Positions 3,567 to 52,797 of a stretch of 64,000 nucleotides of DNA are shown piece after piece. The DNA lies in NCBI RefSeq assembly GCF_022012395.1, contig NZ_JAKLTQ010000001.1:744001-808000 (forward strand), written 5' to 3'. Under the pieces are notes generated by a model. The model saw only the letters and a list, made by a program, of their open reading frames with translations. It did no database searches and was not told the origin of the DNA. This DNA comes from Arthrobacter hankyongi (GTDB taxonomy: Bacteria; Actinomycetota; Actinomycetes; Actinomycetales; Micrococcaceae). Numbering within the stretch: position 1 is the stretch's first letter; every line of letters starts with the position of its first letter. Made by a program: the position numbers and the translations under genes.

Positions 3567-4495
3567 GACGTCGACGAGGCCCGGCCCGGCGGACCGCTGC
3601 GCCGGGCCTCTTCGACACAGAAGTCCATCAGGGCCTGCAGCCGCATGGTGAGCCGCTGTCCGCCCGGATAGGCGAAACAGATGTCGCTGTGGCCGATCTC
3701 GCCGTCGATCTCCACGCAGGCCAGCGGCAGTCCCTCATAGCTGAGATCCAGCGGCGGACGCTGGACCAGGACGGTGTAGCCAAGCCCCCGGGCGACCATG
3801 CCGCGGACCGCTTCGAAGCTGGTGGACCGCCAGACAATCTTCGGGTCCAGCCCGGAGGCACGCAGGTTCGGCAGCTGGTTTTCCCGCACGGAGGGGATGT
3901 CCAGCAGCACCATGTCCTCTCCGGCCAGCTCCCGCAGCGGTATCTTGCGCCGGGCGGCCAGGGGGTGGTTGGCACCGAGCAGGATGTAGGGCCGGCCTCC
4001 GGCGATGACCTGCGTCTGCAGGCCCGCGACCACATGCCGGGTGTGGGTCAGCACGGCATCCAGCCGCCCGTCCAGCAACTGTTCCTGCAGCTCGCCCGGA
4101 GCGCCCTCGGTGATGGCCAGGGACAGCCTGGGGTTCGGTGCCGCGAAGCCGGCGGTCATGGCCGGAATCCAAAAGGCCGAGAGCGTAGTGTAGCAGCCAA
4201 TGGCCAGCGGCCCGGCCAGTTCGCCCTGGCGCTCGGTGATCGTACCCTGCAGTTCCCCGGCCTGCCGCAGCAGGGCCCGGGCATCGGTCAGGAAACGGCG
4301 TCCGGCGCTGGTCAGGGTGGCGCCCTTGGCCTTGTGCCGCACCAGCAGCTGGGTGCCCACGGCCTTCTCGAGTTCGGTCACGGCCAGCGACAAACCGGCC
4401 TGCGAGACCCGGCAAACATCGGCAGCCGCACTGAGCGAGCCGTGGTCGGCGACCGCAACAAAGTACTCAACCTGGCGAAGAGTGTACCGGAACAT
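3563..4495 (-). CDS. LysR-family transcriptional regulator
   Basis: 310 residues. The N-terminal winged helix-turn-helix starts TLRQVEYFVAVADHGSLSAA and continues through VSQAGLSLAVTELEKAVG. It is followed by the two-lobed periplasmic-binding-like effector domain from about residue 90. The gene is convergent with the MFS gene and overlaps it by 4 bp at the stops. That is not the usual divergent LysR arrangement, so regulation of the MBL/MFS pair is plausible but not shown. The family match is clear and the ligand is unknown. Confidence 0.9.
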   Translation of the reverse strand: MFRYTLRQVEYFVAVADHGSLSAAADVCRVSQAGLSLAVTELEKAVGTQLLVRHKAKGATLTSAGRRFLTDARALLRQAGELQGTITERQGELAGPLAIGCYTTLSAFWIPAMTAGFAAPNPRLSLAITEGAPGELQEQLLDGRLDAVLTHTRHVVAGLQTQVIAGGRPYILLGANHPLAARRKIPLRELAGEDMVLLDIPSVRENQLPNLRASGLDPKIVWRSTSFEAVRGMVARGLGYTVLVQRPPLDLSYEGLPLACVEIDGEIGHSDICFAYPGGQRLTMRLQALMDFCVEEARRSGPPGRASSTS

Positions 4496-38061: not shown

Positions 38062-39969
38062 ATGGCAATCAACAGCGACGTCAGGGTTGACGAAAGCAAC
38101 GAACTTCCCCTGACCCCGGACGCGGAACCGGAACAGGTTCCGACCGAAGAGGACCGGGAGATTCTCCAGGCCCTGCGCGAGACTGAATCCGAGCATGCCG
38201 CCGCCCGCCGCCGGCTGTTTGGCAGGGACGGGCTGGACAAGGTGGTCTTCGGGATCACCGGGCTGCTGACCGTGGCCTTTGTCATCTGGGGCTTCGCCGG
38301 CCGCGCGAACCTCGCGGCCGTTTCGCAGGCGGCTCTGGACTGGGTCATGAAGAACACCGGCTGGCTGTTCATCGGCCTGGCCTCGCTCTTTGTGATCTAC
38401 GTGCTCTGGCTGGCCCTGAGCCGCTTCGGCAACATTCCGCTGGGCAAGGACGGCGAAAAGCCCGAGTACTCCATGGTCTCCTGGATCTCGATGATGTTTG
38501 CCGCGGGCATGGGCATCGGTCTGATGTTCTACGGCGTGGCCGAGCCGCTCTACCACTACATCTCCCCGCCACCGGGCACCGTCAACGGCCAGACGCCCGA
38601 AGCCGTCCAAACGGCCATGGCCACCTCCATCTTCCACTGGACCCTGCATCCCTGGGCCATGTACGCCGTCGTGGGCGTTGCCATGGCCTACGGGACCTAC
38701 AGGCTGGGCCGCAAGCAGCTCATTGCCACGGCCTTCACATCCATCTTTGGGATCCGGAGGGTGGAGGGCCCGGTCGGCAAGCTGATCAACATGCTGGCGA
38801 TTTTCGCCACGCTGTTCGGCACGGCAGCATCCCTCGGCCTGGGCGCCCTGCAGATCGGCAGCGGCATGGCCTCCAACGGGTGGATCAGCGGCCAGCTGGC
38901 CACACCGGTGCTGGTGGTGATCGTTGCGGTGCTCACCGCCTGCTTCATCGCCTCCGCGGTTTCGGGCATCAGCCGCGGCATCCAGTGGCTCTCCAACATC
39001 AACATGGTTCTGGCCGTGGTGCTGGCGCTGATCGTCTTTGTGGCCGGCCCGACGCTGTTCATCCTGAACCTGGTCCCGTCCGCCGTCGGGGACTACGTCC
39101 GCGACCTGGCCACAATGTCCTCACGGACCGAGGCCGTCGGCGACGATGCGCTGCGCCAGTGGATGTCCAGCTGGACTATCTTCTACTGGGCCTGGTGGGT
39201 GTCCTGGACACCCTTCGTGGGCCTGTTCATCGCCCGGATCAGCCGCGGCCGCACCATCCGCCAGTTCGTCACCGGCGTGCTGCTAGTGCCCAGCATCGTC
39301 AGCGTCATCTGGTTCGCCATCTTTGGCGGCGCGGCCATCCATATCCAGTCCGCCGCCAACCAGACAGCGGACACCGCCGACGGGCTGGCCACGGTGGTCG
39401 ACGGCACGCCCACCATCTCCTTCGACGGAGCGCTCTTCGACCTGCTGCACCACCTGCCGCTGCCCAACGCCATCGCCGGCGCCGTTTCCATCCTGGCCAT
39501 GGTCCTGGTCGCCATCTTCTTCATCACGGGTGCCGACGCCGCTTCCATCGTGATGGGCTCGCTCAGCTCGCACGGCGCGGAGGAACCGCGCCGCGGCGTG
39601 GTCATTTTCTGGGGTGCCCTCACCGGCGCCGTGGCCGCGGTCATGCTGCTGGCAGGCGGCAACCAGCCTGCCGAAGCGCTCTCGGGCCTGCAGCGGATCA
39701 CCATCGTTGCCGCCCTGCCGTTCGTGGTGGTGATGTTCCTAATGTGCATCGCCCTGGCCAAGGACCTGCGCCGGGACCCGATCGCGCTGCGCAAACGCCT
39801 GGCGAATTCGGTGGTGGAGCGAGCCATCCGCGCCGGCGTGGACCAGCATGGCGGCGTGCGCTTCGACCTGGTCACCAAGCATGAGTGCGACGGCGGATGC
39901 CCGGACGGCGGGCCCTGCCCGTCCACCGGAGCAATCGACGTACAGCAGCCAACCCGGAAGGAACCATGA
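38062..39969 (+). CDS. BCCT-family betaine transporter
   Basis: 635 residues, AAAGGAA upstream. About twelve membrane helices. The glycine-rich substrate helix reads SMMFAAGMGIGLMFYGVAEPLYHY, and the signature tryptophan stretch is FYWAWWVSWTPFVGLFIARISRGRTIRQF. GMGIG-type helix 3 is typical of Na+-coupled betaine carriers such as BetP. The acidic N-terminus (about 55 residues) precedes the first helix. Unusually, the C-terminal tail has H607, C609, C613 and C619 in a glycine-rich context. It is coupled to purU by a 4-bp overlap. Expected substrate: glycine betaine. Confidence 0.94.
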   Translation: MAINSDVRVDESNELPLTPDAEPEQVPTEEDREILQALRETESEHAAARRRLFGRDGLDKVVFGITGLLTVAFVIWGFAGRANLAAVSQAALDWVMKNTGWLFIGLASLFVIYVLWLALSRFGNIPLGKDGEKPEYSMVSWISMMFAAGMGIGLMFYGVAEPLYHYISPPPGTVNGQTPEAVQTAMATSIFHWTLHPWAMYAVVGVAMAYGTYRLGRKQLIATAFTSIFGIRRVEGPVGKLINMLAIFATLFGTAASLGLGALQIGSGMASNGWISGQLATPVLVVIVAVLTACFIASAVSGISRGIQWLSNINMVLAVVLALIVFVAGPTLFILNLVPSAVGDYVRDLATMSSRTEAVGDDALRQWMSSWTIFYWAWWVSWTPFVGLFIARISRGRTIRQFVTGVLLVPSIVSVIWFAIFGGAAIHIQSAANQTADTADGLATVVDGTPTISFDGALFDLLHHLPLPNAIAGAVSILAMVLVAIFFITGADAASIVMGSLSSHGAEEPRRGVVIFWGALTGAVAAVMLLAGGNQPAEALSGLQRITIVAALPFVVVMFLMCIALAKDLRRDPIALRKRLANSVVERAIRAGVDQHGGVRFDLVTKHECDGGCPDGGPCPSTGAIDVQQPTRKEP

Positions 39970-40865
39970 GCACCGTAGTTGACCTTGCCCCGGCCAGACC
40001 GGGCACCGGGGACCAGGCCACCGGCTTCGTCCTGACCCTGTCCTGCCCGGAACGTCCCGGCATCGTCCGGGCCGTGGCCTCCTTCCTGGCGGACCGGGGT
40101 TTCGACATCACCGAGCACCAGCAGTTCGACGACCACACGGACGGCCAATTGTTCCTGCGCACGGCCTTCCGCGGCTCCCCCGCCGGCGCCACCACTGCGT
40201 GGCTGACGGCCGATTTCGAGCCCCTGGCCGAAGAATTCGGGATGTCCTTCACGTTCCACGACGGCCGTCCGCAGCAGCTGCTGGTCATGGTATCCAAGTT
40301 CGGCCACTGCCTGAACGACCTGATCTACCGGTGGCGGGCCGGCAGCCTGGGCGCCGAGATCGCCGTCGTCGTCTCCAACCACGAGGACCTGCGGCCGATG
40401 GCCGAGGCCGCGGGCCTGCCCTTCGTCCACGTGCCGGTCACGGCCGGCACCAAGGCGTCCGCCGAGCGCCGGCTGCTGGAACTGGCCGCCGAATACCACG
40501 CGGACCTGGTGGTGCTGGCCCGCTACATGCAGGTGCTCTCGGACGGATTGTCCAGGACCCTGGCGGGCAGGGCCATCAATATCCACCATTCCTTCCTGCC
40601 CGGCTTCAAGGGTGCCAAACCCTACCACCAGGCCCATGAACGCGGCGTGAAGCTGATCGGTGCCACCGCCCACTACGTCACCGCCGAACTGGACGAGGGG
40701 CCGATCATCGAACAGGAGGTCCTGCGGGTGGACCATGCCCTGGACCCGGAGGCCCTGGCCACCGTGGGCCGGGACGCCGAAGCCCAGGCGCTGGCCCGGG
40801 CCGTGAAATGGCACTGCCAGCACCGCGTGATGCTCAACCGAACCCGTACCGTCGTCTTCCGCTAA
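39966..40865 (+). CDS. purU: Formyltetrahydrofolate deformylase (PurU), second paralog
   Basis: 299 residues; the ATG overlaps the BCCT stop (ATGA) and has GGAAGGAACC. ACT domain: FVLTLSCPERPGIVRAVASFLADRGFDITEHQQF. Catalytic domain: INIHHSFLPGFKGAKPYHQA and GATAHYVTAELDEGPII. It shares long identical stretches with the copy at 24613-25479. Placed immediately before dimethylglycine oxidase, it should turn surplus 10-formyl-THF into formate and free THF for further demethylation. Having one copy per demethylase operon suggests each oxidase carries its own folate relief valve. Confidence 0.95.
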   Translation: MSTVVDLAPARPGTGDQATGFVLTLSCPERPGIVRAVASFLADRGFDITEHQQFDDHTDGQLFLRTAFRGSPAGATTAWLTADFEPLAEEFGMSFTFHDGRPQQLLVMVSKFGHCLNDLIYRWRAGSLGAEIAVVVSNHEDLRPMAEAAGLPFVHVPVTAGTKASAERRLLELAAEYHADLVVLARYMQVLSDGLSRTLAGRAINIHHSFLPGFKGAKPYHQAHERGVKLIGATAHYVTAELDEGPIIEQEVLRVDHALDPEALATVGRDAEAQALARAVKWHCQHRVMLNRTRTVVFR

Positions 40866-40875
40866 CGCTTCCTAG

Positions 40876-43371
<2,496 letters not shown>

Positions 43372-43497: not shown

Positions 43498-44292
43498 CTA
43501 TGCCTGCGGCTGGCCTAGTCGGGCGGACACTTCGGCCGCGGCTTTGCGCACGGCGGCCACCAGCTGGTCCGCGCTCTGGAGCTTCTGCACCCGCGAGCGC
43601 GGCGCCGACGCGGTGATGCAGCCGACCACCACGCCCCGGTAGTCGCGCACCGGCGCGGAGACCCCGAACTCCTCGTCGGTGGTGTAGCCGTCGTTGACCG
43701 CGTACTCCTGGTCCCGCAGTTCGGCCAGATGGGCCGCATAGTCCTGCGGCAACCCGTCGGCGGAACTGCGCACGACGAGTCCGGACTCGATCAGTTCGGC
43801 CACCCGCGCCGGCGGCAGTCCGGCCAGGAACACGCGCACCGACGAGCTTTCGAACCTGTTGTACCGGGTACCGATGGCGGCGGTGTGCTTGACCTGGTGC
43901 GGGCTGCGCACCTGTTCGACGACGATAGCCTCCTGCCCGTTCCAGACCGCGATGGCGCTGGTCTCGCTGGTCTGCGTGGTCAGTGCCTCCAGGAACGGCA
44001 GCGCCGCCCGACGCACGTCGAGGTCCGCCAGCAGCGGACCGGACAGCCCGATCACACCCAGACCCAGTCGGTAGCGGCCGGTCTCCTCGTCCCGCTGGAC
44101 ATAGCCGGCTTCGGTCAGCCCGGCCAGGATCCGCGACACCGTGCTCTTGTGCAGGTTCACCCGGCCGGCGACCTCGGTCACGCCCAGCACCGGCTGGGCG
44201 ATGGAGAACGCTTCGAGCACCGCCAGCCCGTTAAGCAGCGACGCCGCCGCGCCCTGGGTCTGTTCGCTGCCTTGCCGCGGCCTGCCCACCAT
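43498..44292 (-). CDS. IclR-family regulator divergent from an MHS transporter
   Basis: 264 residues. Winged helix SLLNGLAVLEAFSIAQPVLGVTEVAGRVNLHKSTVSRILAGLTEAGYVQRDEETGRYRLG, then the effector domain with TRYNRFESSSVRVFLAGL. It is very similar in its first 80 residues to the IclR protein at 51979-52797 (LGVTEIASRVGLHKSTVSRIL), so the two probably read similar DNA. It is divergent from the MFS gene at 44635, whose promoter carries a GTTGC-N7-GCAAC dyad. Confidence 0.92.
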   Translation of the reverse strand: MVGRPRQGSEQTQGAAASLLNGLAVLEAFSIAQPVLGVTEVAGRVNLHKSTVSRILAGLTEAGYVQRDEETGRYRLGLGVIGLSGPLLADLDVRRAALPFLEALTTQTSETSAIAVWNGQEAIVVEQVRSPHQVKHTAAIGTRYNRFESSSVRVFLAGLPPARVAELIESGLVVRSSADGLPQDYAAHLAELRDQEYAVNDGYTTDEEFGVSAPVRDYRGVVVGCITASAPRSRVQKLQSADQLVAAVRKAAAEVSARLGQPQA

Positions 44293-44410: not shown

Positions 44411-44439
44411 TTGCGCGTTGCTAGGTGAGCAACTAAATT
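44411..44439 (+). promoter_or_regulatory. Promoter with embedded GTTGC/GCAAC operator for the 44635 MFS gene
   Basis: TTGCGC (44411-44416), exactly 17 bases, TAAATT (44434-44439): a good promoter. The spacer is filled end to end by GTTGC (44417-44421), seven bases, GCAAC (44429-44433), so a bound dimer would block RNA polymerase. The half-site is the same as in the creatininase-region promoters. Confidence 0.7.
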
Positions 44440-44634
44440 GTTGTCTGTCGAACCGCTGAAGAACATGGTCAACTACCTGGACAACCTGCCGAAGTTCAGC
44501 GAACCACCACCCCGTAACGGCTGCCAGCCAGCCACGCACACCGCACGACGGCGGCCCCGGAACCTCCGGCGGCCGCCGCCCCATGGCAGTATCCGAACAA
44601 GGCGCACCGCGCCGCTTTCCTCCAAGGGAGCAGG
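44440..44634 (+). other. Long leader of the MFS gene with a short coding-like stretch and a hairpin
   Basis: Intergenic space 44293-44634 (342 bases) holds no recognised gene. After the promoter, an ATG at 44465 opens MVNYLDNLPKFSEPPP with codons like those of well-expressed genes here. No ribosome site is evident, and the frame runs on past the MFS start to 44950. A GGCGGCC...GGCCGCC hairpin (about 44551-44580) follows. AAGGGAG at 44624 serves the MFS gene. This could be an attenuating leader or a gene remnant. Confidence 0.35.
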
Positions 44635-46017
44635 ATGCAACTGGATAATTCCCGTACCTCGCAAGCTGGCCCCGAAGACGCACCGGCCGTACCCCAGGTT
44701 TCCCGCGCAACCCTGCGCAAGGTCACAATTGCCGCCGGCGCCGGCACCGTCGTCGAATGGTTCGACTTCGCCGTCTACGGCTTCCTGGCCCCGGTGCTGG
44801 CCCGGACCTTCTTCCCCGAGGGCGATCCCGTCGTGGCCCTGCTGCAGACCTTCGCAGTCTTCGCCGTCGCGTTCGCCCTGCGCCCGGTCGGCGGCGCCTT
44901 CTTCGGCACGCTCGGGGACCGCATCGGCCGCAAGCGGGTGCTGGCCCTGACCGTGCTGCTGATGTCCGGCGCCACCATGGCCATCGGCCTGCTGCCCAGC
45001 TACCAGGCGATCGGGATCTGGGCGGCGGTCCTGCTGACGCTGGCCCGCAGCGTGCAGGGCCTCTCGGCCGGCGGCGAGTATGCCGGCGCGGTCGCCTACG
45101 TGATCGAACACTCCCCGGACGGCGAGCGCTCGCGGCATTCGAGCTGGATGCCCGCGGCGACCTTCGGCTCCTTTGCCGCCGCCGCCCTGCTGTGCTGGGC
45201 GCTGACCGCCGGCCTGAGCACCGAGGCAATGGACGCCTGGGGCTGGCGGATCCCGTTCCTGGTCGCCGCCCCGCTGGGCCTGGTGGCCTTCTACATCCGC
45301 CGGAAGCTGGATGAAAGCCCCATCTTCCGCGAGGTGATGGAGTCCAACGCCAAAACCGAGCACTCGCCGCTGCGCCGGACCCTGGCCACCCAGTGGCGGC
45401 CCATGCTGACCCTGGGCGGCTACATCTCGCTGACCGCGCTGTCCTTCTACACCTTCTCCACCTACATGACCACGTTCCTGCGCGAGGTGGTCCATCTGCC
45501 CTCGGACGCGGTGCTGTTCAGCAATGTGGTTGCGCTGACCTTTGCCGCGGTCCTGGCGCCGGTGATCGGGCGGATCTGCGACCGGGTCGGCCGCAAACCG
45601 ACCATGCTCGCCTCCGCCATACTGCTGGGCGGCCTGGCGGTGCCGGCCTACCTGCTGGCCTCCGGCGGCAGCATCTACAACGCCCTGGCCGGCCAGCTGC
45701 TGCTCGCCGTCGGCGCGGTGACCGCCAACGTGGTCACCGCGGTGCTGCTGTCCGAGGTGTTCCCGACGGCGGTGCGCTACACCGCCTCGGCGGTCACCTA
45801 CAACGTCAGCTACGCGGTCTTCGGCGGCACCGCTCCCTTCGTGGCGACCTGGCTGATCTCGCTGACCGGCAACACGATGGCACCGGCCATCTACCTGACC
45901 GCCATCGCCGCCGGGGCGCTGGTCGCCGTCGTCCTGATGCCTGAAACCTCCGGCCGGTCCTTCCGCGAGCCGGACCGTCCGGCCCGTGCCGAGGCAGCCC
46001 CAAGGCGGCACCGGTAA
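44635..46017 (+). CDS. MFS transporter, MHS type
   Basis: 460 residues with AAGGGAGCAGG before the ATG. About twelve helices; IAAGAGTVVEWFDFAVYGFLAPVLA and FGTLGDRIGRKRVLALTVLLMSG (motif A) are diagnostic of the metabolite:H+ symporter group. It is divergent from an IclR gene and upstream of an NCS1 permease, ahead of creatininase and creatinase. The substrate may be creatinine, creatine or a related acid; this is inferred from place only. A long leader and a 20-bp terminator bound it as its own transcript. Confidence 0.9.
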   Translation: MQLDNSRTSQAGPEDAPAVPQVSRATLRKVTIAAGAGTVVEWFDFAVYGFLAPVLARTFFPEGDPVVALLQTFAVFAVAFALRPVGGAFFGTLGDRIGRKRVLALTVLLMSGATMAIGLLPSYQAIGIWAAVLLTLARSVQGLSAGGEYAGAVAYVIEHSPDGERSRHSSWMPAATFGSFAAAALLCWALTAGLSTEAMDAWGWRIPFLVAAPLGLVAFYIRRKLDESPIFREVMESNAKTEHSPLRRTLATQWRPMLTLGGYISLTALSFYTFSTYMTTFLREVVHLPSDAVLFSNVVALTFAAVLAPVIGRICDRVGRKPTMLASAILLGGLAVPAYLLASGGSIYNALAGQLLLAVGAVTANVVTAVLLSEVFPTAVRYTASAVTYNVSYAVFGGTAPFVATWLISLTGNTMAPAIYLTAIAAGALVAVVLMPETSGRSFREPDRPARAEAAPRRHR

Positions 46018-46217: not shown

Positions 46218-47726
46218 ATGACTCAGCAGGAACATGACCACCTGGCCGGCAGTGCGGACGCAACCCATGCCGATGTCGAGCAACAGCTTCAACCCATCCC
46301 GGAAAGCGCGCGCACGCGGAAAGTCTCAGGTCAGTTCTGGATCTGGGCGGGCGCGAACCTCGCACCGATCAACTGGGTCCTCGGCGCCCTGGGCATCAAC
46401 ATCGGGCTGGGGTTTGCCGATACGGTCACGGTGCTCGTCGCCGGCAACCTGATCGGCATGGTCCTGTTCGGTTTCTTCGTCCTGCTGGGCCAGCGAACCG
46501 GGGCGACCGGCATGGTCCTGGGCCGGGCCGCCTTCGGACGCCGGGGCAATTATGTGCCGGCCGCCATCCAGGCCGTGCTGGGCATCGGATGGTGCGCGGT
46601 CAACACCTGGATCATCCTCGACCTGGTCATGGCCCTCTTCGGCCGCCTCGGCTGGGTGGATCCCACGCAGGAGAACTACGGCTGGAAGATCGGGGTCGCC
46701 GCCTTCCTCATGGCCCTGCAGGTGCTCATCTCATTCTTCGGCTACAAGGCCATCGCCGCGTTCGAGAAGTGGACGGTGCCGCCGACCATCCTGGTCCTGA
46801 CCGCCATGTCCGCCGTGGCGTGGTTCGGCCTGGACATCGACTGGAGCTACGCCGGACCTCCCGGCGCCATCCTCACCGGCGCCGAGCGCCTCGCCGCCAT
46901 GAGCGCCGTCATGACGGCGATCGGCATCGGCTGGGGAATCACCTGGTTCACCTACGCCGCAGACTATTCACGCTTTGTCAGCAAGGCCATCCCCCGCCCG
47001 CGCCTGTACCTGGCCTCGGTCCTGGGGCAGTTCCTTCCCGTGGTCTGGCTCGGCGTCCTCGGAGCCAGCCTGGCCACCAAGAGCGGGGAGATCGACCCGG
47101 GCCAGCTGATCGTGCAAAACTACGGCGCGCTCGCCATACCCGTTCTGCTCATGGTGCTGCACGGTCCCATCGCGACCAATATCCTCAACATCTACACCTT
47201 CTCGGTAGCCACCCAGGCACTGGATGTGCGGGTCAAGCGCCAGGTCCTGAACGTGCTGGTCGGGTTCTTTGCCCTGGCTGCCGTCGTTTTCTTCGTCTAC
47301 CAGCAGGACTTCGCCTCGGTCCTCGACGCCTGGCTGATCGGACTGGTGGCCTGGGTCGCCTCCTGGGGCGGCATCATGCTCGTGCACTACTACCTGTTCG
47401 AGCGGCGCCTTCCCACCGGGCCGGAGCGGCTCTTCGACCCCATCGGCACGCAGCGGCTGCCGGTCCTGAACTGGGCCGGCCTCGGCGCCCTGGCCTGCGG
47501 CATCTTCGCCACCTGGCTGTTCATGTACGGCCTCCTGCCGGCGACCCAGGGGCCCATCGCCCTGGCCATGAACGGACTCGACCTTTCCTGGCTGGCCGGA
47601 GGCATCACCAGCGCCGCCGTCTACGCCGTCTTCGGACGCCGCATCCACCAACGTTACGCCACCCGCCTGGAGCCCGCGGCCCGTACGGCGCCTGCCGAAC
47701 CCGAAGCCGGCACCCGAAACGGCTAG
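46218..47726 (+). CDS. NCS1-family purine/cytosine-type permease, first paralog
   Basis: 502 residues from ATG at 46218 (TTGGAGG upstream); the frame opens earlier at 46185. About twelve helices. ESARTRKVSGQFWIWAGANLAPINWVLGALGINIGLGF is the NCS1 helix 1 region. It is strikingly similar to the permease at 54974 next to the cytosine deaminase gene. NCS1 substrates include cytosine, purines, allantoin, hydantoins and, in some soil bacteria, creatinine. Standing upstream of creatininase, this copy may import creatinine; the sequence alone cannot decide. Confidence 0.9.
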   Translation: MTQQEHDHLAGSADATHADVEQQLQPIPESARTRKVSGQFWIWAGANLAPINWVLGALGINIGLGFADTVTVLVAGNLIGMVLFGFFVLLGQRTGATGMVLGRAAFGRRGNYVPAAIQAVLGIGWCAVNTWIILDLVMALFGRLGWVDPTQENYGWKIGVAAFLMALQVLISFFGYKAIAAFEKWTVPPTILVLTAMSAVAWFGLDIDWSYAGPPGAILTGAERLAAMSAVMTAIGIGWGITWFTYAADYSRFVSKAIPRPRLYLASVLGQFLPVVWLGVLGASLATKSGEIDPGQLIVQNYGALAIPVLLMVLHGPIATNILNIYTFSVATQALDVRVKRQVLNVLVGFFALAAVVFFVYQQDFASVLDAWLIGLVAWVASWGGIMLVHYYLFERRLPTGPERLFDPIGTQRLPVLNWAGLGALACGIFATWLFMYGLLPATQGPIALAMNGLDLSWLAGGITSAAVYAVFGRRIHQRYATRLEPAARTAPAEPEAGTRNG

Positions 47727-47808: not shown

Positions 47809-47931
47809 ACGTCCACGGCCGTCCCCTCGGGAAACTACGTTGCTGAATCCGCAACAGCCGGGGCGGTTCTCCATCGCGCCGCTCCGCGATGCCACCTTCG
47901 TCCGTAGCAGCTGAAATCATTGGCAAAACCC

Positions 47932-47989
47932 TTGACCGGTGATCTGCGCCACTTCTACCATGGTGCAACCAGGTTGCATTCAACGCAAC
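47932..47989 (+). promoter_or_regulatory. Promoter and GCAAC/GTTGC operator of the creatininase-side transporter
   Basis: TTGACC (47932-47937), 18 bases, TACCAT (47956-47961), then the operator TGGTGCAACCAGGTTGC (47961-47977) and a third half-site AACGCAAC (47982-47989). The core is GCAAC-N3-GTTGC. The 29-base block matches the creatinase promoter block at 50501-50529 at 24 positions, in the same place relative to the -10. Confidence 0.8.
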
Positions 47990-48013
47990 AACCAACAACG
48001 TGGTGGTTTCCCA

Positions 48014-49408
48014 GTGACTCAGAACTTCCTCCCCCCGGACCACGGGTCAGACACTTCATCCAAGGCCGGTAGCATGGTCCACAGTTCCCCCGATTCCTCC
48101 CCCGCCGGCCAGCCGCTCTCCCCCGGAGCCGGCGTCGACAAACAGGCCCGCCGCCGCGTGATCGCGGCCAGCTTTATCGGCAACTTCGTCGAGTGGTTCG
48201 ACTACGCCGTATACGGCTACCTCGCCGCAACGATCGCCGTGGTCTTCTTCCCTGAGGCGGATCCGCAGACCGCCCTGCTGTCCACCTTCGCACTGTTCGC
48301 GATCTCTTTCCTGGTCCGCCCGATGGGCGGGTTCATCTGGGGCCATATCGGCGACCGCGTCGGCCGGCGGACGGCCCTTTCGCTCTCGATCCTGATCATG
48401 TCCCTGTCCACCTTCTGCATTGCGCTCATCCCCGGCTACGCCGCCATCGGCCTCTGGGCCCCGCTGCTGCTGCTGATCGTGCGCGTCGTGCAGGGCTTCT
48501 CCGCGTCCGGCGAATACGCCGGAGCCTCGGCCTTCCTGGTCGAATACGCCCCGCCGAACCGCCGCGGCCTGTATGCGGCGGTGGTCCCGGCCAGCACGGC
48601 CACCGGCCTGCTGTTCGGCTCCCTGCTGGCGGCCGGGCTGACCGGCCTGCTCACCGCGGACCAGCTGCACTCCTGGGGCTGGCGGCTGCCGTTCCTGCTC
48701 GCCGCCCCGATGGGCCTGATCGGACGGTACATCCGGACCAAGCTCGAAGACACCCCGGTGTTCCGCGAGCTGGCCGCCGAGGAACATGCCGAGAAGGCGC
48801 CGGTAAAGAGCCTGTTCGCCAACCACTGGCGGCAGCTGCTGCAGGCGGTCGGCGCGGTGCTGCTGAACGCCGTCGGCTTCTACGTGATCCTCAGCTACAT
48901 GCCCACCTACCTCTCCACGGAGCTGGGCCTGGGCGCCACCGAGTCCTACCTCGCCACCACGATCGCGCTGCTGACCTACATCGGCTTCATCTTCGGCACC
49001 GGCATGCTCTCGGACCGCTTCGGGCGCAAGAAGGTGCTGATCAGCGCCTCGGTGCTCTTCCTGCTGCTGACCGTCCCGGCGTTCATGCTGCTGGACACCG
49101 GCAACTTCGTGGTGATCGTGCTGGTGCAGATCCTGCTCGGCGGCATGCTGACGCTCAACGACGGCACACTGCCCAGCTTCCTGGCCGAAATGTTCCCGAC
49201 GAAGGTGCGCTACAGCGGCTTCGCCGTCAGCTTCAACCTCTCCAACGCCCTGTTCGGCGGCACCGCCCCGTTCGTCGCCACCCTGCTCATCGCGGCCACC
49301 GGCAGCACCCTGGCCCCGGCCTGGTACCTGGCGGCCGCCGCTGCCGTCTCGCTGGTCGCGGTGGCCCTGTCCCGGGAAACCAGCAAGATGCCGCTGCGCC
49401 ACGAATAG
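48014..49408 (+). CDS. MFS transporter, MHS type, in the creatinine cluster
   Basis: 464 residues if started at GTG 48014. An ATG at 48074 with AAGG eight bases upstream would give 444 and is equally possible. The family signature is RRRVIAASFIGNFVEWFDYAVYGYLAATIAVVF, with motif A as GHIGDRVGRRTALSLSILIMS. It begins the unit that includes creatininase (141 bases downstream), and its promoter carries the IclR-type operator shared with creatinase. Likely substrate: creatinine or creatine (inference). It is related to but distinct from the MHS carrier at 44635. Confidence 0.9.
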   Translation: MTQNFLPPDHGSDTSSKAGSMVHSSPDSSPAGQPLSPGAGVDKQARRRVIAASFIGNFVEWFDYAVYGYLAATIAVVFFPEADPQTALLSTFALFAISFLVRPMGGFIWGHIGDRVGRRTALSLSILIMSLSTFCIALIPGYAAIGLWAPLLLLIVRVVQGFSASGEYAGASAFLVEYAPPNRRGLYAAVVPASTATGLLFGSLLAAGLTGLLTADQLHSWGWRLPFLLAAPMGLIGRYIRTKLEDTPVFRELAAEEHAEKAPVKSLFANHWRQLLQAVGAVLLNAVGFYVILSYMPTYLSTELGLGATESYLATTIALLTYIGFIFGTGMLSDRFGRKKVLISASVLFLLLTVPAFMLLDTGNFVVIVLVQILLGGMLTLNDGTLPSFLAEMFPTKVRYSGFAVSFNLSNALFGGTAPFVATLLIAATGSTLAPAWYLAAAAAVSLVAVALSRETSKMPLRHE

Positions 49409-49549
49409 CCGGGCGCCGACCGGCCGGCCGCATCCGCAACAATCGATCCAGGACCTGCCGGCCGACCGCCCTCCGGTCTTCCACCTCTACACAACCACAA
49501 CAGCGCGCATGCCGGCCCACGGACAATGCGCCGAAGAATGGAGCACATC

Positions 49550-50335
49550 ATGCGTCAGTCCGTGTACATCGAGGATCTCGATGCCTTCAGCTACCGGGAA
49601 GCCGTCGCCCAGGATTCGGCCCTGGTCCTGATCCCGGTGGGGTCCATTGAACAGCACGGCCCCCACATGCCGCTGAACGTCGACGTCCTGCTGTCGCGGG
49701 CGATGGCAGGACAGGTCGCCGAGGAGCTGAAGGCCCTGGTGGCGGCCCCGGTGGTCTACGGCTACAAGTCCCAGCAGCGTTCGGGCGGCGGCAACCACCT
49801 GCCCGGGACCACCAGCCTGGACGCGTCGACGGTGATTTCCATCGCCAAGACGCTGACCCTCGAGTTCGCCCGCCACGGCGTACGCAAACTCGCCTTCCTC
49901 AACGGCCACTTCGAGAACTACCAGTTCCTCTACGAGGGCGTGGACCTGGCCCTGCGCGAGCTGCGGCTGGCGGGCATCGAGGACCTGAAGGTGGTCCTGC
50001 TTTCCTACTGGGACTTCATCGACGATGCCACCATTGCCGAGCTGTACCCGGACGGTTTCACCGGCTGGGACCTTGAGCACGGCGGTGTCCTGGAGACCTC
50101 GCTGATGCTGCACCTGTACCCGGAGAAGGTGGACATGGCCGAGGTCGTGGATGCTCCCCCGGCCGTGATGCCCACCTACGACGTGCTGCCGGTCCGCCCC
50201 GAGCTCACCCCTGCTTCCGGCTGCCTGTCCTCGGCCGCGGCAGCCACGGCGGAGAAGGGCGTCACCCTGCTCAAGCGCGCCCGGGCCGGCATGTCCGCCG
50301 CACTGACGTCCGAGTTCGGACTGGCGGAACGGTAA
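49550..50335 (+). CDS. Creatininase (creatinine amidohydrolase)
   Basis: 261 residues from ATG at 49550, GGAG seven bases upstream. Metal ligands and catalytic residues fall at the same numbers as in the Pseudomonas enzyme: E34, H36, D45, H120 and E122, with W154 also kept. YGYKSQQRSGGGNHLPGTTSLD is the creatininase-specific segment that separates it from mycofactocin-type relatives. It interconverts creatinine and creatine. The next gene is creatinase, completing creatinine to sarcosine plus urea, and sarcosine feeds the SoxBDAG complex encoded 18 kb away. Confidence 0.95.
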   Translation: MRQSVYIEDLDAFSYREAVAQDSALVLIPVGSIEQHGPHMPLNVDVLLSRAMAGQVAEELKALVAAPVVYGYKSQQRSGGGNHLPGTTSLDASTVISIAKTLTLEFARHGVRKLAFLNGHFENYQFLYEGVDLALRELRLAGIEDLKVVLLSYWDFIDDATIAELYPDGFTGWDLEHGGVLETSLMLHLYPEKVDMAEVVDAPPAVMPTYDVLPVRPELTPASGCLSSAAAATAEKGVTLLKRARAGMSAALTSEFGLAER

Positions 50336-50358
50336 CCGGCAGACAGGCCTGCCTGGTG

Positions 50359-50388
50359 CCGGACGGTCCGCTGCCGCGGGCCGTCCGG
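50359..50388 (+). terminator. Hairpin terminator after creatininase
   Basis: CCGGACGGTCCGC (50359-50371) pairs with GCGGGCCGTCCGG (50376-50388), 13 bases with one G-U, loop TGCC, 23 bases after the stop. It separates creatininase from the creatinase promoter. Confidence 0.72.
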
Positions 50389-50472
50389 CCTGGCTTAAAC
50401 CACCGAAAGAACCTATATGGGCAACACAGTTGCAGCATTCGTCAGCTATGAGACGGAAGCCACAAAAAACTC

Positions 50473-50529
50473 TTGACAGTGAACGGCACCACACATAATC
50501 TGGTGCAACAACGTTGCGGTGAACGCAAC
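50473..50529 (+). promoter_or_regulatory. Promoter and operator of creatinase
   Basis: TTGACA (50473-50478), 18 bases, TAATCT (50497-50502); CATAAT at 50494 is an alternative -10. The operator TGGTGCAACAACGTTGC (50501-50517) is followed by a third half-site AACGCAAC (50522-50529). It matches the transporter promoter at 47932-47989 in every element and is probably bound by the IclR protein encoded at 51979. Confidence 0.8.
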
Positions 50530-50583: not shown

Positions 50584-51837
50584 ATGACCATCGCCAACGC
50601 ATCGGCCAGCAGCATTTCCGAGCTCGAGCGCCTGAAGGTGCTGCACAACGGCGAGAAGGTGCAGCTGACCTTCTCCGATGCCGAGTTCGAGCGCCGGCTG
50701 TCCGGCCTGCGGCAGATCATGGCCGAGAAGGACCTGGACGCCGTCGTCCTGACCTCCTACCACAACATCAAGTACTACTCGGACTTCCTGTTCACCTACT
50801 TCGGCCGCTCCTACGCCCTGGTGGTCACCCCCACCGACTCGGTGTCCGTGACCGCGAACATCGACGCCGGCATGCCCTGGCGGCGCAGCTACGGCGAGAA
50901 CATCGTCTACACCGACTGGCGCCGGGACAACTACTACTACGGCCTGCAGGAAGCCCTGCGCCAGCGCGGCATCACCGCCAAGCGCCTGGGCGTCGAGGAC
51001 GACAGCCTGCCGCTAATGCTGCGCGAGCGCATCCAGGCCGCCTTCGGCGGTGCCGAGCTGGTGGACGTGTCCCAGGCCGCCATGCGCCAGCGCATGATCA
51101 AGTCCGCCGAGGAAATCGAGGTCATCAAGCACGGTGCCCGGATCGGCGACCTCGGCGGCGAGGCCATCAAGGCCGCCATCCGCGAGGGCATCACCGAGTA
51201 CGAGGTTGCCCTGATCGGCACCGAGGCCATGACCCACGAGATCGCCCGGACCTTCCCGAACAGCGAAATCCGCGACACCTGGGTTTGGTTCCAGTCCGGC
51301 ATCAACACCGACGGCGCCCACAACTGGGCCACCACCCGCAAGCTGCAGCGCGGGGACATCCTGTCCCTGAACTGCTTCCCGATGACCTCCGGCTACTACA
51401 CCGCCCTGGAGCGCACCATGTTCCTCGGCCAGCCGGACGAGCGCAGCCTGGAACTGTGGAACATCAACGTCGAGGTGCACCGCCGCGGCCTGGAGCTGAT
51501 CAAGCCCGGCGCCGTCTGCAAGGACATCGCCGCGGAGCTGAACGAAATCTACGTCGGCTACGGCCTGCTGCCCAACCGCACCTTCGGCTACGGCCACTCC
51601 TTCGGCGTGCTGAGCCACTACTACGGCCGCGAGGCCGGCCTGGAGCTGCGCGAGGACATCGATACCGTGCTCGAGCCGGGCATGGTGGTCTCGATGGAGC
51701 CGATGATCACGGTCCTGGACGGCCAGCCGGGCGCCGGCGGCTACCGCGAGCACGACATCCTGGTGGTCGGCGAGGACGGGGCCGAGAACATCACCAAGTT
51801 CGGATTCGGTCCGGAAAACAACATCATCGACGCCTAA
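50584..51837 (+). CDS. Creatinase (creatine amidinohydrolase)
   Basis: 417 residues; AAAAGGA precedes ATGs at 50578 and 50584. This is a pita-bread (M24) fold enzyme without the aminopeptidase metal set. SGINTDGAHNWATTRKLQRGDILSLNCFP contains H246, equivalent to the catalytic histidine of Pseudomonas creatinase. FGYGHSFGVLSHYYGREAGLELREDIDT and the C-terminal GGYREHDILVVGEDGAENIT are creatinase-specific. It hydrolyses creatine to sarcosine and urea. It has its own promoter with the shared operator; no urease gene is visible in the window. Confidence 0.96.
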   Translation: MTIANASASSISELERLKVLHNGEKVQLTFSDAEFERRLSGLRQIMAEKDLDAVVLTSYHNIKYYSDFLFTYFGRSYALVVTPTDSVSVTANIDAGMPWRRSYGENIVYTDWRRDNYYYGLQEALRQRGITAKRLGVEDDSLPLMLRERIQAAFGGAELVDVSQAAMRQRMIKSAEEIEVIKHGARIGDLGGEAIKAAIREGITEYEVALIGTEAMTHEIARTFPNSEIRDTWVWFQSGINTDGAHNWATTRKLQRGDILSLNCFPMTSGYYTALERTMFLGQPDERSLELWNINVEVHRRGLELIKPGAVCKDIAAELNEIYVGYGLLPNRTFGYGHSFGVLSHYYGREAGLELREDIDTVLEPGMVVSMEPMITVLDGQPGAGGYREHDILVVGEDGAENITKFGFGPENNIIDA

Positions 51838-51908: not shown

Positions 51909-51953
51909 CCTGCGGGTTGCGGCACAGCCACAGGCTGTGCCGCAACCCGCAGG
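51909..51953. terminator. Perfect 21-bp hairpin between creatinase and its IclR gene
   Basis: Arms 51909-51929 and 51933-51953 are fully complementary around the loop ACA, 72 bases after the creatinase stop and 26 bases before the IclR start. It most simply terminates the creatinase transcript. It also contains GGTTGC and GCAACC in its arms, so the IclR protein might contact it. Confidence 0.7.
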
Positions 51954-51978: not shown

Positions 51979-52797
51979 ATGAATCCTCTTCCAGCTTCCG
52001 CAGCCGACAACGGCACCGACTCGGCCAACGGCGATTCGCGCGGAGCCTCCGTGCTGGTCAACGCCGTCGCGGTGCTGCGTTGCTTCAGCGTGGACGAGCC
52101 GCTGCTGGGCGTCACCGAGATCGCCTCACGCGTCGGCCTGCACAAGAGCACCGTCTCGCGCATCCTGGCCACCTTGGAGCAGGAGGACCTGGTGGAGCGG
52201 GACGAGACGTCCCGGCGGTTCCGGCTGGGGCTGGGCCTGATCGCCGTCGCCGGACCGCTGCTGGCGGAACTGGACGAGCGCCGCGTGGCCTACCCGGTGC
52301 TGCGTGAGCTGACCGAGCGTACCCAGGAAACCAGCGCGCTGCTGACCTGGACCGGGTCCAGCGCGGTCTGCGTCGAGCAGATTCCCAGCCCGCAGCAGGT
52401 CAAGCACACCTCCCCGCTGGGCACCCGGTACAGCACCGCGCTCAGTGCCAGCGTGCAGGTGTTCCTCGCCGCGGCAGGCCCGGAGCGCGCCCGCGCCCTG
52501 CTGGCCAGCGGCGTCATCGAGTACCCCTCCGCCACGCCGGTGCGGATCGACGAGTTCGTCGAACGGCTCAAGACGGTGGCTTCGGAGGGTTACGCCATGA
52601 ACTACGGCGAGACCAGCGTGGACGAGGTGGGGGTGGCCGCGCCGGTGCACGACCACCGCGGCAGCGTCGTCGCCACCGTCATGCTCGCCGCCCCCCGCTA
52701 CCGGATCTCCGCCGAGCACCTGCAGCTGCTGGCCGAAGCCTGCACGGCCGCGGCCGCACAGGTAACCAGCCGGCTGGGCGGCCTGCCACCGCAGTAA
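51979..52797 (+). CDS. IclR-family regulator of the creatinine genes
   Basis: 272 residues from ATG at 51979; the ribosome site is weak (GGAAGAT). Winged helix VLVNAVAVLRCFSVDEPLLGVTEIASRVGLHKSTVSRILATLEQEDLVERDETSRRFRLG, then an effector domain with TSPLGTRYSTALSASVQVFLAAAG. It lies directly after creatinase. Two promoters in the cluster share a GCAAC-N3-GTTGC operator, the size expected for an IclR dimer, so repression relieved by creatinine, creatine or sarcosine is the working model. Confidence 0.92.
   Translation: MNPLPASAADNGTDSANGDSRGASVLVNAVAVLRCFSVDEPLLGVTEIASRVGLHKSTVSRILATLEQEDLVERDETSRRFRLGLGLIAVAGPLLAELDERRVAYPVLRELTERTQETSALLTWTGSSAVCVEQIPSPQQVKHTSPLGTRYSTALSASVQVFLAAAGPERARALLASGVIEYPSATPVRIDEFVERLKTVASEGYAMNYGETSVDEVGVAAPVHDHRGSVVATVMLAAPRYRISAEHLQLLAEACTAAAAQVTSRLGGLPPQ

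Follow-up and report, generated by a model that had tools for sequence, protein, structure and literature searches.

For IclR-family regulators, three-box binding sites have been predicted in 32 orthologous groups, while tandem sites, whose centres are 18-22 nt from each other, are described in 94 (PMC8222616). The regulators named for creatine or creatinine genes in the sources consulted are AmtR (nitrogen) and GbdR/SouR (sarcosine), and no other appears there. In Corynebacterium glutamicum, the genes corresponding to those discussed below are repressed by AmtR (PMC8864220), and the published site of the C. glutamicum regulator GlxR is TGTGA-N6-TCACA (PMC7999487). An Arthrobacter growing on creatine, not on creatinine, has been described (PMC3534580). 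The stretch analysed here is 64,000 nt of Arthrobacter hankyongi (contig NZ_JAKLTQ010000001.1, positions 744,001 to 808,000; "the window", to whose positions the coordinates below refer). It carries a creatinine gene cluster in which two promoters, ahead of the MFS2-creatininase and creatinase genes, bear near-identical blocks. These blocks are very probably docking sites for the IclR protein encoded at 51979 (IclR-B) that have been kept across many genera. Together they can be described as a new regulon of an already published type of IclR site, a well-supported prediction made from sequence.

Probable operator blocks at the two creatine promoters

The blocks, TGGTGCAACCAGGTTGCATTCAACGCAAC (47961-47989) and TGGTGCAACAACGTTGCGGTGAACGCAAC (50501-50529), agree at 24 of 29 positions, as the initial annotation had counted, and the GCAAC-N3-GTTGC core plus third GCAAC that it described is borne out in both. 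Each block consists of three boxes of alternating direction, GCAAC-N3-GTTGC-N7-GCAAC, which make up operators O1 (47965..47989, forward strand) and O2 (50505..50529, forward strand). Both match 15 of 15 box bases and have the group 1 and group 2 spacing of the published three-box operators (PMC8222616). O1 is kept before the MFS2/creatinase operons of relatives and O2 occupies the same place before creatinase in two related stretches (L089 and L093).

The MFS2-creatininase promoter is TTGACC-N18-TACCAT (47932..47961, forward strand; -35 at 47932-47937, -10 at 47956-47961) and the creatinase promoter is TTGACA-N17-TAATCT (50473..50501, forward strand; -35 at 50473-50478, -10 at 50496-50501). 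The 18-base spacer proposed earlier for both (TTGACM-N18-TANNNT) is therefore correct for the first promoter, and the second has 17 bases. The blocks had also been placed "identically over the -10", a loose wording for a real correspondence: both begin on the final base of the -10 hexamer. Box 1 begins 4 bases past this hexamer in both promoters, and the boxes span the likely start site. In relatives, TTGAC lies 30-36 bases ahead of box 1 at 90 of 94 creatine-type sites, and 75 of these 90 creatine promoters have TANNNT starting 9-11 bases ahead of box 1. A simple promoter scan listed only the first of the two window promoters, without excess over shuffles, and left the creatinase promoter unlisted.

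The pattern GCAACNNNGTTGCNNNNNNNGCAAC has three exact matches in the 5.19 Mb genome (reversed pattern: 0), namely O1, O2 and a site before the second carbamoylsarcosine amidase gene (C1:539682). With up to three mismatches, the forward counts in the same genome (67 and 69) are not above those of the reversed control (72 and 88), so only exact or near-exact sites are informative. The exact site is present in 154 of 395 same-family genomes, representing 19 of 32 genera; the reversed control occurs in 5 genomes. The surroundings of 107 distinct exact sites were examined: 2 from the window, 1 from L031, 32 from L054-L083 (automatically picked, all of one genus, g9) and 72 from L084-L143, which are 60 exact-site stretches hand-chosen for genus coverage among the matches listed. 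Sites of some genera (e.g. g21, g22 and most of g7 and g24) fall outside this set. Within it, 103 of the 107 sites lie at most 450 bp before homologs of MFS2 (67), creatinase (19), carbamoylsarcosine amidase (9), the BCCT transporter (7) or creatininase (1). Of the other four, one (L082) is a reverse reading that overlaps, two (L110 and L114) lie close to contig ends and the last is the site of L095. These neighbour counts cover site-bearing stretches only, the unbiased test being the 80-genome sample described in the next section. The exact site also precedes MFS2-creatinase-IclR-B in three loci of Brevibacterium, which belongs to another family. Across relatives the 15 box bases are constant and the N3 and N7 bases vary.

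Further sites, overlooked in the initial annotation, lie upstream of both promoters. An auxiliary three-box site (47831..47855, forward strand; 14 of 15 box bases) is found 134 bp upstream of O1, and an auxiliary two-box site, GCAAC-N3-GTTGC (50421..50433, forward strand; exact, 10 of 10), is found 84 bp upstream of O2, with a counterpart at the same -84 in L089 and L093. Such a site occurs within 400 bp upstream of 29 of 69 related promoters, versus 9 of 1802 control stretches. In addition, each window promoter has a GlxR/CRP-like element, GTG-N8-CAC, between its -35 and -10 (47939..47952 for MFS2-creatininase and 50479..50492 for creatinase, both on the forward strand). Of 90 creatine promoters, 85 have this element similarly placed (59 of 64 when thinned at 75% identity), as do 0.25% of shuffled spacers. 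Its inner GTG and CAC are conserved, the outer bases of TGTGA-N6-TCACA are not.

IclR-B as the predicted regulator of O1 and O2

IclR-B (51979..52797, forward strand) is proposed as the regulator of O1 and O2 on the basis of its conserved domains and its co-occurrence with the operator. Like a second regulator of the window, IclR-A, this protein has the domains PF09339 (HTH_IclR) and PF01614 (IclR_C), both above cut-off, and is a member of the IclR family. Placement of IclR-B and IclR-A in the PcaR/PcaU/PobR subfamily (TIGR02431) was rejected, the scores being 90.5 and 122.6 bits, respectively, against a cut-off of 284.75. The sensor domain of IclR-B resembles PDB 3obf (E-value: 3.1e-61), a solved structure that could be used for ligand docking.

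Co-occurrence was assessed in 80 same-family genomes drawn by handle number. The exact site is present in 32 of these and creatinase in 37; 29 genomes have both, 3 the site only, 8 creatinase only and 40 neither (Fisher p 2.2e-11). Six of the eight creatinase-only genomes have a site at 14 of 15 box bases in the cluster. The other two (G017 and G030) have no site, with nothing above 12 of 15 in the approximately 16 kb fetched around creatinase, and no IclR-B. Near sites were sought in the creatinase genomes, and genome-level presence is what is recorded where the site was not fetched. Proteins matching at an E-value of 1e-45 or better and at least 53% identity were counted as IclR-B. By this measure, IclR-B is present in 36 of the 80 genomes, and all 36 have the site somewhere (30 exact, 6 at 14 of 15 box bases). 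Of these 36, 35 are the genomes in which creatinase and a site occur together; the remaining one, G038, has a site and no creatinase match. In G015 and G021 the IclR-B match lies on a different contig from creatinase. Among 46 creatinase loci, which had been chosen for holding a site, IclR-B is encoded in every one and lies within 300 bp of creatinase in 34. The same-family creatinase clusters of G017 and G030 (L196 and L197) are thus examples without IclR-B and without the operator in the stretch read.

When IclR-A is used as a query, the single match in 22 of the 36 site-bearing genomes is IclR-B itself, at no more than 51% identity. Because IclR-B is the sole close match in these genomes, a protein of the type encoded at 43498 is not needed for retention of the site. 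The earlier proposal that the blocks define a regulon of the 51979 protein is, in terms of assignment, well supported by this co-occurrence (36 of 36 genomes); binding and an effect on expression are predicted.

A second IclR clade and a second operator dialect

IclR-A (43498..44292, reverse strand; PF01614 and PF09339) is 48% identical to IclR-B and belongs to another clade. A single branch with support of 100/100 separates 58 IclR-B rows from 13 IclR-A/C/D rows; as the tree is unrooted, this split is a bipartition, and one degenerate IclR copy was excluded from the tree. Among the differences fixed between the clades in the DNA-binding half are R34 in IclR-B versus E in the other clade and, for the most part, T65 versus G. 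The recognition-helix stretch HKSTVSR is present in nearly all of the rows printed, with HKSSVSR in some IclR-B proteins. The genome encodes four full-length members of this close IclR group, the next best match of its own being at 32%. The two members outside the cluster lie 250 kb away, beside genes for hydantoinase and N-carbamoylsarcosine amidohydrolase (PDB 1nba, E-value: 1.7e-100). These are the enzymes of the second creatinine route. An IclR-like gene with an apparent internal deletion is found downstream of the second carbamoylsarcosine amidase gene (L031:12611-13330; G000 C1:540611-541330).

The intergenic region between the divergent IclR-A and MFS1 genes carries the lattice GTTGC-N7-GCAAC-N3-ATTGT-N7-CGAAC (44417..44453, forward strand), in which the last two boxes match at 3 of 5 bases each. 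Its counterparts are four-box sites between MFS1 and an IclR gene in L088 and L094. At the hydantoinase and MFS1/IclR promoters of relatives, this second dialect forms a 37-bp four-box lattice in which two palindromes have their centres 20 bp from each other and one or two of the boxes are often imperfect. The two dialects differ in their flanking bases. Box 1 of the 90 creatine-type promoters is preceded by T in 73, C in 10, A in 4 and G in 3; box 2 is followed by A in 43, G in 39, C in 6 and T in 2; and box 3 is preceded by T in 72, C in 14 and A in 4. At the same three flanks, all nine carbamoylsarcosine-type sites have A, T and A, respectively. At 44417, GTTGC is followed by T and GCAAC is preceded by A, which agrees with the carbamoylsarcosine-type set. 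The exact site at C1:539682 has the A/T flanks of the other eight carbamoylsarcosine-type sites, and its inclusion in one shared regulon with O1 and O2 was rejected as a first choice. The genome contains eight copies of the full TGTGA-N6-TCACA (none of the reversed control), one of which is beside a four-box site in the region that separates the divergent genes for hydantoinase and carbamoylsarcosine amidase. This region holds that exact TGTGA-N6-TCACA together with two four-box sites whose inner boxes are imperfect (L031:3387-3443 and 3673-3709).

The initial annotation had read the half-site at 44417-44433 as having a wider spacer and as a hint of cross-talk between the two regulators. In both blocks, however, boxes 2 and 3 have this same GTTGC-N7-GCAAC spacing, and that argument falls; 44417 instead fits the dialect found with the 43498-type clade. 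Cross-binding between the clades is possible because the HKSTVSR stretch is common to both. A wider scheme can be offered tentatively, with somewhat less than even weight: that the sister IclR clades split the two creatinine routes by reading mutually exclusive dialects of one 20-bp lattice. The dialects would be set by the GCAAC flank and a few fixed residues (R34/E and T65/G), and the fixed GlxR-type spacer element of the creatine promoters would allow these to compute substrate and carbon state together.

Proposed model, gene context and known systems

The sites, their positions, conservation and co-occurrence, and the dialects and clades suggest the following scheme for control of the cluster. 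IclR-B, as a dimer pair, would occupy the three boxes, which cover about -3 to +22 (counting from a start inferred from the -10). Bound there, it would exclude RNA polymerase from the MFS2-creatininase and creatinase(-IclR-B) units; repression is favoured because this position is a place for occlusion. Binding of creatine, or of a product derived from it, to the sensor domain would bring about release. Creatininase was not found in the stretch read for half of the 46 creatinase loci, all of which encode IclR-B, so creatine or its product is a likelier inducer than creatinine. The auxiliary sites 134 and 84 bp upstream may strengthen binding, perhaps via looping, and a further layer, linked to carbon or cyclic AMP, is probably added by a protein of the GlxR/CRP type through GTG-N8-CAC in the spacer. 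The second dialect (AGCAAC flanks, with four boxes at most) would be read by IclR-A and its paralogs at the promoters of carbamoylsarcosine amidase, hydantoinase and MFS1, 44417 among them. Taken as a whole, it is quite likely that the blocks are IclR-B operators which repress until creatine or its product binds, with auxiliary, GlxR and second-dialect layers.

Several observations weigh against parts of this scheme. Two genomes, G018 and G078, carry the exact site without creatinase or IclR-B (these sites look like chance), none of the query genes lies beside the site of L095, and 15 of the 90 creatine promoters have no TANNNT at the expected place. The auxiliary sites are absent from 40 of the 69 promoters and so are not essential; some of the 29 found (e.g. 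that of L104) serve a divergent gene as its main operator. No clear helical phasing of these sites was seen, their distances varying from -84 to -156. Among the promoter sets examined for it, the GTG-N8-CAC element is lacking at all 9 of the carbamoylsarcosine type and all 3 from Brevibacterium. As both clades share HKSTVSR, specificity between the dialects is putative. Finally, the repressor sign is taken from box position alone, and the three-box regulators PcaU and PobR are activators.

This last point leads to the alternative that IclR-B binds the blocks as an activator, or as both activator and repressor, in the manner of PcaU, PobR and PcaR. Repressors, activators and dual regulators are all known in the IclR family, PcaU and PobR have the same three-box layout, and the reference list of the same paper gives PcaU as an activator and PcaR as acting from -35 and -10 elements (PMC8222616). 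The boxes of creatine-type promoters, however, lie downstream of the -10, and a good TTGAC -35 with 16-18 base spacing should work without an activator, which makes activation by IclR-B unlikely. It is rather improbable that O1 and O2 are bound mainly by IclR-A or some other close paralog, or that both clades share the sites. The two sets have the same five-base box and 20-bp lattice, and their proteins the same HKSTVSR at 48% identity, but IclR-B is the sole close match in 22 of the 36 site-bearing genomes, and the creatine-type and second-dialect sets are unlike in flanking bases and number of boxes. That the likeness of the blocks reflects duplication of a promoter segment without regulatory role might be suggested by their distance of 2.5 kb within one cluster and their 24 shared positions. 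This is hardly credible, and was rejected, given a site found in 154 of 395 genomes (reversed: 5) in a conserved gene context, which keeps its box bases while N3 and N7 vary and which tracks IclR-B. The reading of the blocks as IclR-B operators is thus preferred.

The genes served by the two promoters encode MFS2 (48074..49408), a metabolite/H+ symporter-like transporter found in 37 of the 46 creatinase loci examined; creatininase (creatinine amidohydrolase; 49550..50335), with TIGR04448 above cut-off and similarity to PDB 1j2t (E-value: 3.3e-91); and creatinase (creatine amidinohydrolase; 50584..51837), similar to PDB 1chm (E-value: 3.2e-168). All three are on the forward strand. MFS2 likely imports creatine or creatinine, and both enzymes are closely related to solved ones, from which their activities are predicted. 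Upstream, also on the forward strand, are MFS1 (44635..46017; PF07690/PF00083), another metabolite/H+ symporter-like transporter, and an NCS1-family permease (46218..47726; PF02133). Ahead of the cluster (38062-43371) are genes for a BCCT transporter, PurU (formyltetrahydrofolate deformylase) and a dimethylglycine/sarcosine-oxidase-like protein, neighbours which fit the disposal of sarcosine methyl groups. In the gap between creatinase and IclR-B, two perfectly inverted 21-bp arms flank a loop of 3 bases at 51909-51953, with no T-run; the 81 nt around this repeat have a minimum free energy of -54.8 kcal/mol (z -8.47). This hairpin may lower read-through into IclR-B. It was rejected as part of the lattice, the GTTGC and GCAAC of its arms lacking the lattice spacing.

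No paper found in the open literature joins an IclR protein with creatinase, creatininase or carbamoylsarcosine genes in the sense proposed here. The terms "creatin", "sarcosine" and "hydantoin" are absent from the main text of PMC8222616, whose supplementary tables, which list its predicted regulons, could hold a creatine IclR group. Within one family the predicted regulon is found in many genera, and it extends beyond that family to Brevibacterium. IclR-B might be put to use as a sensor of creatine. Among described systems, the genes controlled by AmtR (PMC8864220) likewise combine an MFS transporter with creatininase, carbamoylsarcosine amidase and hydantoinase. AmtR, in contrast, is a TetR-family nitrogen regulator, and no IclR protein is named in the accessible part of that source. 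The GTG-N8-CAC element fits the core of the C. glutamicum GlxR site TGTGA-N6-TCACA (PMC7999487), although by eye the two window sites match 7 and 8 of its 10 consensus bases. The genome encodes a GlxR relative (PDB 4byy, E-value: 6.1e-75).

O1 and O2 closely resemble the three-box operators of PcaU, PobR and HmgR (PMC8222616). They share with these the alternating boxes, the group 1 pair (GTT-11-AAC, here GTTGC-N7-GCAAC) and the group 2 pair spacing (here GCAAC-N3-GTTGC); they differ in the box word, which is GTTGC/GCAAC here and GTTYC/GRAAC there (G for Y). In the second dialect, each four-box site consists of two GTTGC-N7-GCAAC palindromes whose centres are separated by 20 bp; these sites resemble the tandem IclR sites of the same paper. 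What sets the present case apart is that a single genome has two paralogous clades using one lattice, with differences in flanking base and box number. Close paralogs with an unchanged recognition-helix stretch and separable dialects offer a natural experiment on how IclR proteins stay distinct from one another.

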